Positions 16,931 through 35,749 of a stretch of DNA of 37,191 nt are shown piece after piece; position 1 is the first letter of the stretch, and each line of letters begins with the position of its first letter. The translations under genes were made by a program, and so were the position numbers. The notes below the pieces were generated by a model that was given only the letters and a program-made list of their open reading frames with translations, did not search any database and was not told the DNA's origin. The stretch comes from Methanomassiliicoccales archaeon. GTDB lineage: Archaea; Thermoplasmatota; Thermoplasmata; Methanomassiliicoccales; UBA472. The stretch covers positions 1 through 37,191 of the forward strand of contig DATKZX010000021.1 of assembly GCA_035527755.1 (NCBI GenBank). The letters are read 5' to 3'.

Positions 16931-16937
16931 AAATATT
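16931..16937 (+). promoter_or_regulatory. TATA-like element of the small membrane protein gene
   Basis: The sequence aaatatt is centred about 32 bases before the ATG at 16966, consistent with a short or absent leader. Confidence 0.4.
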
Positions 16938-16965
16938 GAATATCTGGTTTCATATCTCACCTTTC

Positions 16966-17313
16966 ATGTCCAAGCCCATCACTGTGGAGAAGGGGTTAGA
17001 ACTGTCCATCATCATAATGTTGGTCGGTGATTTTCTGTTCGTCGCAGGTCTGTCCGATGCGTTGCATTGGATATTGAGCTTGGGTGGTTGGGGGTTCTGG
17101 GCCGGAGGGTTGGGGATCCTGATGTCCTTGGTGGGAACGATCTGGTTAATTTTTATAATACTGAGGATCAAGAGATTCAAACTTCTTATGACCGAAAAAA
17201 GCAAGGCGGTCTTCGTAAGAGCATTGGATGATTTGGAATATACTGCTTGGCAGTTACCAGAAAAATATGCTCGGTTAGTTGATGAGAAGAAATCTCAAAT
17301 GGGTGTTAAGTAG
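16966..17313 (+). CDS. small membrane protein, possibly DUF3198-like
   Basis: This 115-residue protein has two or three hydrophobic segments (about residues 12-32 and 40-66) followed by a basic turn (RIKRFKLL) and a charged helical tail containing AVFVRALDDLEYTAWQLPEK. It resembles the small two-helix DUF3198 proteins described from Thermoplasmata, but I hold that only loosely. ATG 16966 is preferred over 16936 because the TATA element at 16931-16937 would otherwise overlap the start. The gene is more A+T-rich than its neighbours, as is hflX downstream, and it borders the origin-like region. Confidence 0.65.
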   Translation: MSKPITVEKGLELSIIIMLVGDFLFVAGLSDALHWILSLGGWGFWAGGLGILMSLVGTIWLIFIILRIKRFKLLMTEKSKAVFVRALDDLEYTAWQLPEKYARLVDEKKSQMGVK

Positions 17314-17317
17314 GGGA

Positions 17318-17338
17318 CACCCCATCATTTCCGATGGA
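17318..17338 (-). promoter_or_regulatory. origin-recognition-box-like element (left)
   Basis: Read on the - strand it begins TCCAtcGGAAA, then a 4-base spacer, then GGGGTG. This has the layout of an archaeal ORB: a short dyad TCCAnnGGA, an A-run and a G-string. Twenty of 21 bases match the element at 18781-18801 in inverted orientation. A perfect palindrome CGAAATTTCG (17340-17349) follows immediately and an A/T-rich stretch lies beyond it. It probably binds Orc1/Cdc6. Confidence 0.65.
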
Positions 17339-17370
17339 ACGAAATTTCGGCGTCGCCTTTCTGGATACTC

Positions 17371-17446
17371 GTATTTTTTCCAAATTTTATAGATTAATTT
17401 TTAACTTATGTTATATTATATATTGAATAAAAATCTATTATCTATC
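17371..17446. other. A/T-rich stretch, candidate DNA unwinding element
   Basis: About 75 bases composed almost wholly of A and T lie between the left ORB-like element and the hflX stop. The position, next to an ORB and near cdc6, is what a duplex unwinding element of an archaeal origin would occupy. The same T-rich sequence could also simply terminate transcripts of the small membrane protein gene. Confidence 0.4.
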
Positions 17447-18716
17447 TATCATCGATAGAATTCATTGTACTAGAAACGTCTTTGATACCCGGTAAGGAAT
17501 AGAGTTTATCCATTACAAGCTCCAGATCCTCCGATGCACATCGGAAGACCACCTTGACAATATTGGAATATTCAACAGATTCAACATAATAGGAATCATA
17601 GATACGAGATATCTCTGTCGCGGTCCGATCGGTATTGGCAGCTGAGAAACGTACTATGACTGGTGGACGAAAGTACTCATCGATCAGACCGAGCATGGTG
17701 TCGATACCATCTCCAGTCAAAGCTGATAAAGGAACTACAGCTATCGGGTCTAGGATCTCTCTGATCATATTGACCATGTCACCTATTCTGTCAGGGTCCG
17801 AATCACTTTTATTCAATGCGACCAAGATCCTATCGCCAGTGACCCCGTCACCCAATATCTCTTGCACCGTTATCATTTTCTCACTAATGTTGTATAATGC
17901 CTCGGACGAATCAACAACCAATACGACCAGGTCAGCGGAAAACACATCCTGTAGTGTATTGCGGAACGATTCCACCAGATAATGCGGAAGGTCCTTGAGG
18001 AAACCCACGGTGTCCGTTAACAGTATCTTGGAAAACCCCATCCTCCTGGTGGTCGTTCCTAGAGTAGAGAACATTCTATCAGCTACAAGGACCTCCTCTC
18101 CGGTCAACCTCCTCATCAACGACGATTTACCCGCATTGGTATAACCTGCCAAACAGATCGTTTTAAAACCTTTGTACCGGCGGACGCTCCTTCTAAGGTC
18201 TCCATCCTTTGCCAATCCATACAGTTCATCTTCGATCAGACCGATGCGCCGCCGTATGAGGTTGTAATACACATCTACGGCGTATTCCCCTCCCCCCAAA
18301 AAACCAGGATGCTCACCGGCCTTTGCGCTGTGAACCCATTCCCTTAATAAAGGGACCTGATACTTCAATCTGGCTCTCTCAACCTGGAGCTTGGATTCCC
18401 GGCTCTCCGCCCTCTTTGTGAATATATCCAATACTACACCCACTCTGTCCAGGCACTCGATCTTCAGACCGTTCTCCAGATTGAAATGTTGAGATGGTTT
18501 GAGGTCCCCATTGAAGATCAGAACCTCCACCGGGCTTTCATCCATCAGTTCCTTCAATTCCCGGAATCTCCCTCGGCCGATGAAATATGTCTGATCGGGA
18601 TGTGATCTTCTCTGTACGATCTCGTAGATGATATCGATGTCAGCGGACTGGCACAGTTCTTCCATCTCCGCAACGTCCCAATTCAAGCTTATCAATGCGC
18701 CCTTTCGCACCGGCAT
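17442..18716 (-). CDS. hflX: HflX-type ribosome-associated GTPase
   Basis: This 424-residue protein has an N-terminal HflX domain (about residues 1-175, with the family segment QTYFIGRGRFRELKEL, a linker helix with QVERARLKYQVP, and GFLGGGEY near 138-144), then a G domain with GYTNAGKSS (191-198), FSTLGTTTR (switch I), DTVGF (235-239) and NKSD. HflX binds and splits stalled or inactive 70S-type ribosomes. ATG 18716 is preferred because GGTGAAAGGAG directly precedes it; a GTG at 18728 is in frame. The gene is visibly more A+T-rich than the genes around it and lies exactly between two ORB-like elements. Confidence 0.92.
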   Translation of the reverse strand: MPVRKGALISLNWDVAEMEELCQSADIDIIYEIVQRRSHPDQTYFIGRGRFRELKELMDESPVEVLIFNGDLKPSQHFNLENGLKIECLDRVGVVLDIFTKRAESRESKLQVERARLKYQVPLLREWVHSAKAGEHPGFLGGGEYAVDVYYNLIRRRIGLIEDELYGLAKDGDLRRSVRRYKGFKTICLAGYTNAGKSSLMRRLTGEEVLVADRMFSTLGTTTRRMGFSKILLTDTVGFLKDLPHYLVESFRNTLQDVFSADLVVLVVDSSEALYNISEKMITVQEILGDGVTGDRILVALNKSDSDPDRIGDMVNMIREILDPIAVVPLSALTGDGIDTMLGLIDEYFRPPVIVRFSAANTDRTATEISRIYDSYYVESVEYSNIVKVVFRCASEDLELVMDKLYSLPGIKDVSSTMNSIDDR

Positions 18717-18780
18717 TTCTCCTTTCACCCCAATCCCGTCCCCTTGCTTTACCTTATTTGGTAACAGACCCTGTTAGGGC

Positions 18781-18801
18781 TCCATCGGAAATGAAGGGGT
18801 G
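18781..18801 (+). promoter_or_regulatory. origin-recognition-box-like element (right), upstream of cdc6
   Basis: Read on the + strand it begins TCCAtcGGAAA, then TGAA, then GGGGTG, continuing GG, which is close to known archaeal ORBs in dyad and G-string. It lies 145 bases before the cdc6 ATG and is the inverted partner of 17318-17338. It may serve as an origin element, as an autoregulatory site for cdc6, or both. Confidence 0.65.
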
Positions 18802-18843
18802 GGAGTGCATACACCCGATGAAAACCAAATCGACAGTTGACCG

Positions 18844-18875
18844 CCTTACTTATAGATTCAAGGATAAAAGTAAGG
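18844..18875. repeat. inverted repeat CCTTACTT-N16-AAGTAAGG before cdc6
   Basis: Perfect 8-base arms at 18844-18851 and 18868-18875 enclose A/T-rich sequence with TATA-like parts (cttatag, ggataaaag). It could bind a regulator or help open the duplex in the origin region. Confidence 0.45.
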
Positions 18876-18905
18876 TTCATGTAAAGGGAACCCCAATGTC
18901 CTTTC

Positions 18906-18920
18906 CCTGACCGGGTCAGG
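18906..18920. repeat. palindrome CCTGACC-G-GGTCAGG before cdc6
   Basis: Seven-base arms with a single central base end 25 bases before the cdc6 ATG, just at or before its likely promoter core (ccttattat, 18922-18930). This is an operator-like position for a transcription factor. Confidence 0.45.
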
Positions 18921-18945
18921 ACCTTATTATCAATATGAGGGCACC

Positions 18946-20184
18946 ATGGAATCTAACGTCTTTACGCAGCATCTGGATAGAAAGCAGATATTTAAAAAGA
19001 ACAACCGAGAGATCCTACGCCCCTCCTATATCCCGGAAGTGCTACCTCACCGGCAAGAGGAGATACAGTCCCTGGCGTCGGTACTGGTCACCGCCCTTAG
19101 GGGTGAAAGGCCTAGCAACATCCTTATCTTCGGCAAGACTGGAACGGGAAAGACCGCATGCGTCAAGTTCATCGGGAACGAGATCAAGAAGGCCGACGGC
19201 GAGAGTCACAAGGTGACGTTCATCTACATGAACTGCGAGGTGGTCGACACTGCCTACGGCGTATTGCAGAACATCGGAAACCAATTCGTCAAGGACTTCG
19301 ATCAAAGAATACCGTTCACCGGTCTGAGCATCATGCAGGTCTACAACATGTTGCGGGACAAGCTTGACGAGCAGGACCAGGTCATCATAATCGCCCTGGA
19401 CGAGATAGATAAACTGGTCTACAAGAGCGGGGACGATGTGCTGTACCACCTATCGAAGATCAATGACGACCTGAGCAAGGCCCGGGTCTCGGTCATCGGT
19501 ATTTCCAACGATCTACTGTTCACGGAGATGCTGGATCCCCGGGTCCGCAGCCGCATGGAGGGGGAACGGATGGTCTTCCCACCTTACAACGCCGACCAAT
19601 TGAAGGACATATTGCGGCAGAGGGTCATCCTGGCCTTTGACGAAGGCGTACTGGAGGAAGCGGTCATACCCCTATGCGCCGCCCTGGCCGCACAGGAGCA
19701 CGGGGACGCCCGCCGTGCATTGGACCTGTTGCGGATCGCGGCAGAGATCGCCGAGAGGGAGAATTCCGAGCGAGTCGCTGAACTGCACGTGCTCAAGGCC
19801 AAGAACAAAATGGAGCTCGACTGCGTCAGCGAGGCGATAAGGACGCTTCCTACGCAATCGAAGATGGTCCTCATGTGCATCGTGGCCAACGTCGAGCGCA
19901 GTGTCGGACGCTTGACCACCGGGGATGTTTACGAGACGTACAAGGAAATGTCCCGCATATTGGGCATGGGGCCGTTGACCCAGAGGAGGATAACTGACCT
20001 CATTTCCGAGCTGGACATGTTGGGCATCATTCATGCCCGCGTGCGCTCGTTCGGTCGCGGCGGGCGCACCAAGGAGATCGACCTCAGTGTGCCCATCGGT
20101 GAGACCAGGAAGGTGTTGGAGGAGGATGAGGTCTTCATCGGCCTCAAGCATTACAAACAAAGGAACCAGACCACGCTGATGTGA
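18946..20184 (+). CDS. cdc6: replication initiator Orc1/Cdc6
   Basis: This 412-residue AAA+ initiator has an N-terminal arm, Walker A GKTGTGKT at 63-70, Walker B with DEID at 152-155, a sensor-I strand ending ISNDL, the initiator arginine region DPRVRSRM, and a C-terminal winged helix from about 310 (SKMVLMCIVANVERS and the recognition-helix region GPLTQRRITDLISELDMLGI). It binds ORB sequences, and ORB-like elements lie 145 bases and about 1.6 kb upstream. Opposite the next gene, its stop abuts the signal peptidase stop with no spacer. ATG 18946 is the start; an ATG at 18935 is out of frame. Confidence 0.95.
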   Translation: MESNVFTQHLDRKQIFKKNNREILRPSYIPEVLPHRQEEIQSLASVLVTALRGERPSNILIFGKTGTGKTACVKFIGNEIKKADGESHKVTFIYMNCEVVDTAYGVLQNIGNQFVKDFDQRIPFTGLSIMQVYNMLRDKLDEQDQVIIIALDEIDKLVYKSGDDVLYHLSKINDDLSKARVSVIGISNDLLFTEMLDPRVRSRMEGERMVFPPYNADQLKDILRQRVILAFDEGVLEEAVIPLCAALAAQEHGDARRALDLLRIAAEIAERENSERVAELHVLKAKNKMELDCVSEAIRTLPTQSKMVLMCIVANVERSVGRLTTGDVYETYKEMSRILGMGPLTQRRITDLISELDMLGIIHARVRSFGRGGRTKEIDLSVPIGETRKVLEEDEVFIGLKHYKQRNQTTLM

Positions 20185-21072
20185 TCATTCCTTCGTTCGT
20201 CGCATCATTTCCTTTATACGGGCCCAGGGATCGATGCCCCTCTTCTTCAGCACGACCCCGGTCAGATCGATGGCTAAAGGTACAATTATCAACACGGCCA
20301 AGGTGACCATCAGCCCGGTCTTACTGTTCTCAGGGGTGTTCGAAGGCATGTTGCCGTTGACCCAGAGCTTGATCAGGCCAATCCAGGGGATCTCAAGCTT
20401 GGCCTCGCCCACGATCCATTCATCCATGATCGGCTCACGGCAGATGGTGGTGGTCGATTGATCATACACCCCCCCATTATGGTCCCCCAGCGTGATGATG
20501 CCACCATGGTCGAGGTTGTGGGCATCGTAATAGCTCAGCAGGTCGGAAAGGTCCACTCTGAGAAGGACGGACCGATACCCTATGTCATAGATCTCCACAT
20601 AACCTGAAAGGTTCCACCATCGCCCATCCTCCACAGGACCGTTTCCCCACTTATCGGCCGGCAGGAGCGCCAGGGAGGGGATATCAAAACTTAGGGCGGT
20701 GCTGTTGAATTCCAATCGCAGCATGGCCCGGTGTATGATGGGGGTGTACTCGGACCGCCCGTAGCGTTCATAAATGATCACGTCGCCGAAATCCCCGAAG
20801 CTACGATGGCCGTCAGGATAACATTCCACATAGGTCCTCACATCATCCCCACCTGTAGCCTGGACGACCACTAGGTCCCCGGTGTCGATGATCCCGAAAT
20901 CGCTCTCTGTATCACTATGCTGCATGCTTGCCGATTCCACAACGAAGACCGGGGGCCAAATACCGCTATAGGCCAAGAGGCCTCCAAGTAGCATCAGAAC
21001 GATGATCATTCCGCCAATGACGGCCTTGTAGCGCTTGACCACGCCCCATATCTTACCAGGAAGTTCGGACAA
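20185..21072 (-). CDS. S26B signal peptidase I-like protein
   Basis: This 295-residue Sec11-type signal peptidase has membrane helices at about 17-36 and 253-275. The candidate triad is Ser49 (VVESASMQHSD), His114 (TPIIHRAML) and Asp197 (LGDHNGG), fitting the archaeal Ser-His-Asp arrangement. The GDLVVVQ strand after the serine is conserved. About 82 residues separate the histidine and the aspartate, far more than the usual twenty to thirty, so a beta-rich insertion (roughly 120-190, with tryptophans and many hydrophobic strands) sits by the active site. It would remove signal peptides at the outer membrane face. A TATA-like gtataatta (21091-21099) lies just upstream. Confidence 0.85.
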   Translation of the reverse strand: MSELPGKIWGVVKRYKAVIGGMIIVLMLLGGLLAYSGIWPPVFVVESASMQHSDTESDFGIIDTGDLVVVQATGGDDVRTYVECYPDGHRSFGDFGDVIIYERYGRSEYTPIIHRAMLRLEFNSTALSFDIPSLALLPADKWGNGPVEDGRWWNLSGYVEIYDIGYRSVLLRVDLSDLLSYYDAHNLDHGGIITLGDHNGGVYDQSTTTICREPIMDEWIVGEAKLEIPWIGLIKLWVNGNMPSNTPENSKTGLMVTLAVLIIVPLAIDLTGVVLKKRGIDPWARIKEMMRRTKE

Positions 21073-35233: not shown

Positions 35234-35749
35234 TTATTTTTCCATTATCAGTTCAAGATAGGACCGGCGTTCGTTCCCTTTTAGGCCAAGTTGTCGCTTC
35301 AACAGCATGATCTTCTCTTTACCGGCAACAAGGTCCTCGCCTTCGTACTCCAGTTCGACGTAATCACCCAGACCTTCCACCCGGTCCAAGCATATCTCCA
35401 CATCCTGGTACGAATATACCGTGCGGCTTTTAGCCACCCGTAAAAACGGTTTGAACCCCACCCTTTCCAGTACAGAGGACATGAGTGATAGGTCCTCCAC
35501 GCCCAGTTCGATCTCCTCTCGCATCTTTGTATCCGCGTCCATTTTCGGTCCCTTGTAGGTGATGCGAGATCGGTCGTTCTCCCTTCTCAGCCTCAGGGCC
35601 TCATCCGTGACCCCGAAATCACGTTCTGGGTGGGAGAAGTATACGTCTTCCTGATCAAGGTCCTCGACGTGCTCGGCGCCAAGTTCTTTCAGTCGGCGTT
35701 CCAACCCGTTCAGGTCCGGGCAGGGCACCTTTATCTCCAGCTCGATCAT
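35234..35749 (-). CDS. CYTH-domain protein (CyaB / thiamine triphosphatase-like)
   Basis: This 171-residue CYTH protein has the signature E-x-E-x-K at the N terminus (IELEIKV), then VYFSHPERDF, LRLRRENDRSRITYKGP, EEIELGV, VAKSRTVYSY, ICLDRVEGLGDYVELEYE, the tunnel-lining charged residues of this fold. Members hydrolyse or cyclise triphosphates (class IV adenylate cyclase, thiamine triphosphatase, tripolyphosphatase); the activity here cannot be told by eye. The ATG at 35749 fits the family start and the TATA box at 35775-35786; an in-frame ATG at 35776 lies on that box. Confidence 0.88.
   Translation of the reverse strand: MIELEIKVPCPDLNGLERRLKELGAEHVEDLDQEDVYFSHPERDFGVTDEALRLRRENDRSRITYKGPKMDADTKMREEIELGVEDLSLMSSVLERVGFKPFLRVAKSRTVYSYQDVEICLDRVEGLGDYVELEYEGEDLVAGKEKIMLLKRQLGLKGNERRSYLELIMEK

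Follow-up and report, generated by a model that had tools for sequence, protein, structure and literature searches.

A pair of inverted origin recognition boxes (ORBs) that flanks hflX next to orc1/cdc6.1 very probably marks the chromosomal oriC1 of a Methanomassiliicoccales archaeon, in a wide form that encloses a gene. The window, that is, the whole stretch of DNA analyzed here, spans 37,191 nucleotides (contig DATKZX010000021.1). At the sequence level, the assignment is supported by the position, rarity, conservation and polarity of the boxes, by an A/T island within the pair, by an intact initiator gene and by a skew switch in relatives. The original prediction had named the locus a candidate replication origin, and the rarity of the motif, its conservation near cdc6 and, in relatives, the skew switch support this. 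We infer that binding, loading and firing take place at this predicted origin.

The left (distal) ORB, TCCATCGGAAATGATGGGGTG, occupies positions 17318–17338 on the minus strand, between the convergent 3′ ends of a DUF3198-like gene and hflX. The right (proximal) ORB, TCCATCGGAAATGAAGGGGTG, lies at 18781–18801 on the plus strand, between the probable promoters of hflX and cdc6. As originally claimed, the two boxes are identical at 20 of 21 bases in inverted orientation, including a 4-base spacer and GGGGTG; their layout is TCCA-NN-GGAAA-NNNN-GGGGT. Both G-strings point outward, that of the left box to the left and that of the right box to the right. The boxes are separated by 1,442 bp with hflX inside. 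The cdc6 gene follows the right box, as predicted, at a distance of 144 rather than 145 bases. Both boxes are a near-perfect fit to the ORB consensus published for Archaea and to that for Methanomassiliicoccales, printed as GTTCCAGTGGAAATGG-AGGGGTA (PMC4153887). The locus has the ORB motif (dyad, A-run and G-string) of an Orc1/Cdc6-dependent archaeal oriC1, and has the minimum of two ORBs in inverted orientation.

Scattering of the motif through the genome had been named as evidence against an origin; its only two copies lie at this locus. Pattern searches of the whole 1.68 Mb genome, a draft of 26 contigs, returned these two boxes and nothing else at up to three mismatches, and a reversed-pattern control in the same genome at the same threshold gave zero matches. 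A second orc1/cdc6 paralogue, on contig C26, has no box nearby, because the genome contains no third box. Applied to the window, a weight matrix trained on 60 boxes from other genera gives its two highest scores to this pair (31.9 and 30.1 bits), with the next site at 14.2 bits. This site, at 35455, was considered as a third ORB; it lacks the TCC and is taken as a chance match.

The enclosed hflX (17442–18728, minus strand) is an intact gene for a ribosome-associated GTPase (TIGR03156, 283 bits; cut-off 216.75). The initiator gene orc1/cdc6.1 (18946–20184, plus strand) is also intact (NF001625, 561.6 bits; Cdc6_C and AAA+). The closest solved chains to the window Cdc6 are 2qby_A (E 1.3e-106) and 2v1u_A, which are Sulfolobus Orc1-1 and Aeropyrum ORC1, the two structures bound to origin DNA (PMC4010727). 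The locus thereby has an adjacent, intact orc1/cdc6 of the Orc1-1 type. Cdc6 is 89–99% identical within the genus, and the related loci come from Methanomassiliicoccales MAGs. To the left of the left ORB lies a conserved gene for a DUF3198-like membrane protein (16936–17313, plus strand), which scores just under the Pfam cut-off. Downstream of cdc6 is a conserved signal-peptidase-like gene (20185–21072, minus strand), whose identity is suggested by its ESASMQHS motif; it has no Pfam or NCBIfam match.

Two further elements emerge from the genus alignment. Upstream of hflX, the conserved TTTACCTTATTTGGTAAC (18748–18765, minus strand) consists of a TTACC/GGTAA inverted repeat around an A/T core and is the probable hflX promoter. 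The conserved CCTTACTT ... GGATAAAAGTAAGG (18844–18875, plus strand), an inverted repeat over a TATA-like box, is the probable cdc6 promoter or operator; both functions are assigned from the sequence. The TTACC..GGTAA and CCTTACTT..AAGTAAGG inverted repeats flank the right ORB and are possibly operators for hflX and cdc6.

An A/T-rich stretch (17371–17452) lies just inside the left ORB and is a candidate duplex-unwinding element. It contains the least stable duplex: the weakest 70 bp of the region start at 17383 and are 89% AT, confirming the A/T-rich stretch that had been noted beside the left box. Its proposed role in unwinding is supported by position, since the weakest duplex lies inside the pair; such a position is a correlate of an unwinding element rather than proof of one. 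By position and stability, the locus thus has an A/T-rich candidate unwinding region between its ORBs. Each of the nine genomes of the genus has its weakest 70-bp duplex (74–89% AT) just inside the left box. Elsewhere the island moves: in family f6 the weakest duplex is near the start of hflX, between it and cdc6; genera g2 and g7 have it within the hflX coding sequence, at the NKID motif. Of 24 genera, 21.5 (with one counted as a half) have it between the boxes, where 0.33 would be expected by span; this excess partly reflects intergenic DNA, and the island position is not fixed across genomes. The A/T islands have no sequence motif common to most genera. In the g2 and g7 loci (L079, L081, L083 and L075), the hflX segment at about −1240 from cdc6 is 83–87% AT, with synonymous codons pushed to A/T. 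Compared with synonymous reshuffling, a 24-codon stretch in each of these four genes is enriched in A/T, with p values from <1/5000 to 118/5000.

To follow the layout beyond the window, the cdc6 loci of relatives were oriented and then scanned for ORBs. A pattern search found matches in 83 of 101 genomes, compared with 0 of 101 for the reversed-pattern control; most of the listed matches adjoin cdc6, and some genomes have lone extra ORBs. In the order Methanomassiliicoccales, 30 genomes from 15 genera have inverted, outward-pointing boxes on both sides of hflX, upstream of orc1/cdc6.1: one minus box beyond hflX and one plus box between hflX and cdc6. The hflX gene runs leftward in 29 of them. 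It is flipped in G024 (family f4), where the boxes are still inverted and outward. Across the order, boxes with a gene between them are 1.2–2.4 kb apart. Families f3–f6 and part of f1 have an additional plus box near −60, which is missing in the window's genus. Among the nine genomes of that genus, the boxes stand out as conserved islands in otherwise diverged intergenic DNA. The conservation near cdc6 on which the original prediction depended is therefore found across the order and beyond it. The layout had also been called unusual, which is true among described archaeal origins, whereas within the order it is ordinary.

The content of the pair varies. In family f2, genus g23 excepted, it encloses cdc6 instead, and its right box lies where cdc6 and the signal-peptidase gene converge; no hflX was detected in the genomes listed for this group. 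G026, which resembles M. intestinalis, lacks hflX, and its boxes are 254 bp apart around an 89% AT stretch. Outside the order, the same hflX-enclosing layout occurs in family f11 (G275). Two other Thermoplasmatota families (G116 and G109) have compact inverted pairs directly between a DUF3198-like gene and cdc6, so that this gene borders the pair there as it borders the left box in the window. In the DHVE2-like family f8, hflX is upstream of cdc6 in the same direction, and three of five loci have a plus box; hflX also adjoins cdc6 in other families of the phylum. Because the inverted pair is kept while its content varies, it appears to be a functional cis unit rather than the promoters of one gene. 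A compact origin may have acquired hflX, or the loss of hflX may have given rise to the compact form.

Left and right boxes of the same genome differ at a mean of 1.97 of 19 positions, compared with 3.49 between genera, and 0 of 2,000 shuffles reach the observed value. Such likeness suggests that the boxes coevolve with the local Orc1 or undergo gene conversion. The flanks are asymmetric: CCC comes after the left G-string in 29 of 30 hflX-layout genomes, and GGG after the right G-string, also in 29 of 30. The left string continues into CCCCC (GGGGTCCCCC) and the right into GGGGG; f2 has GGGGG after both. In G275 (L127), with boxes at −1716 and −273, left and right are identical over 25 bases, including an uncommon GGAAGC, which suggests gene conversion between inverted ORBs. 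The flipped gene of G024 (L085) is the outcome expected of recombination between inverted ORBs.

Compact archaeal origins usually have ORBs roughly 100–250 bp apart, although this spacing is not strictly defining. The present locus, with 1,442 bp between its ORBs, is not a compact intergenic origin of this kind, and what is new relative to canonical origins is this distance and the content, a gene. The Sulfolobus oriC1 (ORB3-DUE-ORB2) measures 130 bp in all; the boxes in the window are more than 10 times farther apart, with a gene between them. The inverted Sulfolobus ORBs are bound by Orc1-1, the closest solved relative of the window Cdc6, and neither ORB is dispensable in vivo (PMC12141716). 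For two opposed ORC sites in yeast, the reported optimal spacer is 70 bp (PMC12183775). The oriC1 loci of the haloarchaea Haloarcula hispanica and Haloferax volcanii have two inverted ORBs around an A/T-rich region, as here; those ORBs are intergenic with no gene between, whereas the present pair encloses hflX. Outward G-strings are implied for Haloarcula hispanica by its sites I (CCCCCC) and II (GGGGGGGG), taken in the order that a figure legend suggests (PMC3936714). According to another figure legend, the haloarchaeal oriC1 neighbors are a GTP-binding protein, cdc6 and a signal peptidase (PMC4010727). The signal-peptidase-like gene at 20185–21072 likewise lies downstream of cdc6.

For the order itself, Borrel et al. 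(2014) described origins with the same initiator, orc1/cdc6.1, and the same ORB motif (PMC4153887, Table 2). As in our genome, they found two orc1/cdc6 paralogues and paired ORBs near cdc6.1 only, so ORBs near orc1/cdc6.1 in Methanomassiliicoccales were already known. Their alvus ORB pairs, at 78–159 and 1977–2066, straddle cdc6.1 and thereby resemble the present f2 genomes, and their M. intestinalis pair, 256 bp apart, resembles the compact 254-bp pair of G026 (PMC4153887). For M. luminyensis, which shares the hflX layout, two cdc6-side sites were published, and the left box beyond hflX (G043:C21:75096-75115) is absent from the list (PMC4153887). Contig C21 of G043, which we take to be CAJE01000021, agrees with the published M. 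luminyensis ORBs in both sequence and position; the published ORB1 is a dyad read on the strand with the weak G-string, and the opposite strand gives the better reading. Unlike that study (PMC4153887), we note the hflX-enclosing layout, its conservation, the outward polarity and the A/T island. In the papers searched, a set outside subscription journals and origin databases, we found no description of the distal box beyond hflX, of a gene-enclosing inverted pair throughout the order and in one outside family, or of the flipped and gene-free states, the left–right asymmetry and concordance, and the intragenic A/T island.

Strand composition was examined in two relatives with complete genomes. 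In G015, of the same family and with the same hflX layout, 613 ORFs from 40 sampled 20-kb stretches gave a third-position GC skew (putative leading minus lagging) of −0.045 (bootstrap 95%, −0.061 to −0.029). The sign change was extreme at the cdc6 locus among 72 positions tried, the antipode being equivalent by construction. In G061, of family f2, 20 sampled 20-kb stretches gave +0.046 (0.019 to 0.072), with the extreme within about 70 kb of the locus. A skew switch is seen at the locus in G015 and, more weakly, near it in G061. Relative to cdc6, the sign of the skew is opposite in these members of two families of the order. With these opposite signs, the skew locates a replichore boundary but leaves it to the ORBs and cdc6 to distinguish the origin from the terminus. 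Within the window, the cumulative skew has a local minimum near 20–21 kb, which is confounded by gene strand and was set aside.

In Sulfolobus and haloarchaea, each ORB is bound by a single Orc1 of fixed polarity, whose AAA+ domain reads the G-string and whose winged helix reads the remainder of the box; MCM is recruited to the DNA between inverted ORBs with the N-tiers facing (PMC12141716, PMC7776575). By likeness to these solved relatives, the Orc1/Cdc6.1 from the adjacent gene would bind the two inverted ORBs, one monomer each, with a polarity set by dyad and G-string. Each Orc1 would recruit an MCM helicase on its inner side, as in other archaea, so that two helicases would face each other. 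The A/T-rich stretch next to the left ORB would be the first to unwind. The two sites might cooperate across hflX through helicase sliding or DNA looping, or each might load its own helicase independently. We tentatively propose the former kind of origin, bipartite and split by a transcribed gene, in which both distant Orc1 sites are needed to load opposed MCM and which persists where the enclosed gene has been inverted or replaced. If both sites must act, initiation would occur across hflX and, in some genera, inside its codons. In g2 and g7, the weakest duplex does lie in hflX codons, which are biased beyond synonymous expectation. The plus box near −60 in f3–f6 and part of f1 counts against the hflX-flanking pair as the oriC1 core in those genomes, where a cdc6-side pair could be the core.

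The same −60 boxes are an argument for a narrower origin, confined to the hflX–cdc6 intergenic region (the right ORB, plus the −60 ORB where present), with the left ORB as an auxiliary or titration site. This possibility, which we regard as rather unlikely, concerns the extent of the origin and not its status as one. Outlying ORBs are known elsewhere. The weakest duplex of f6, between hflX and cdc6, also fits a narrower origin, as do the exclusively cdc6-side ORBs given by Borrel et al. for M. luminyensis (PMC4153887). In the window's genus, however, the −60 box is missing, which would leave the right ORB without its partner, and all nine genomes have the A/T island next to the left ORB. The left box is moreover conserved as well as the right one, and where hflX is absent, the pair forms a compact inverted origin.

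It is improbable that the boxes are instead operators through which Orc1/Cdc6 or another regulator controls transcription of hflX and cdc6. The right box does lie between two conserved promoter-like elements, and some archaeal Orc1 paralogues are reported to be regulators (PMC9738581). The position of the left box, flanked by convergent 3′ ends with no promoter to be expected, argues against its being an operator, however. The f2 right box is likewise between convergent genes, cdc6 and signal peptidase, and the match is to the ORB consensus including the G-string. The right box may have an additional regulatory role.

It is very improbable that the boxes bound a mobile element with hflX as its cargo. 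Their arrangement as 21-bp inverted repeats around one gene that is present, flipped or absent, depending on the genome, would fit such an element. Yet there is no target-site duplication (gtagggga on the left, ggagtgca on the right), no transposase and no further repeat copy in the genome, which refutes the simple form of this explanation; the boxes also conform to the ORB consensus, and other taxa have cdc6 or no gene at all within the pair. Chance likeness of two 21-mers, for which only the small motif size speaks, has a negligible probability and is refuted by conservation: about 0.01 inverted 20/21 matches are expected anywhere in 37 kb (our own estimate, uniform bases), no other copy exists in 1.68 Mb at three mismatches, and the same places are kept in 30 genomes.

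Models of archaeal initiation assume ORBs about 100–250 bp apart around a short A/T-rich element. A methanogen order with inverted sites 1.2–2.4 kb apart is a natural test of the maximal separation of two opposed initiator sites and, with a working gene between them, of the way in which an origin deals with being transcribed. The locus also provides an origin position for a culture-poor order, and the ORB motif can be used for metagenome growth-rate estimates.

Lone perfect ORBs occur away from cdc6 in several genomes (for example G046:C5:17836, G083:C40:3401, G039:C1:48088 and G081:C16:39465; L185–L204). They have no common neighbor or partner gene. They are kept within genera, lie inside one gene in genus g16, and are possibly titration sites or dormant origins.
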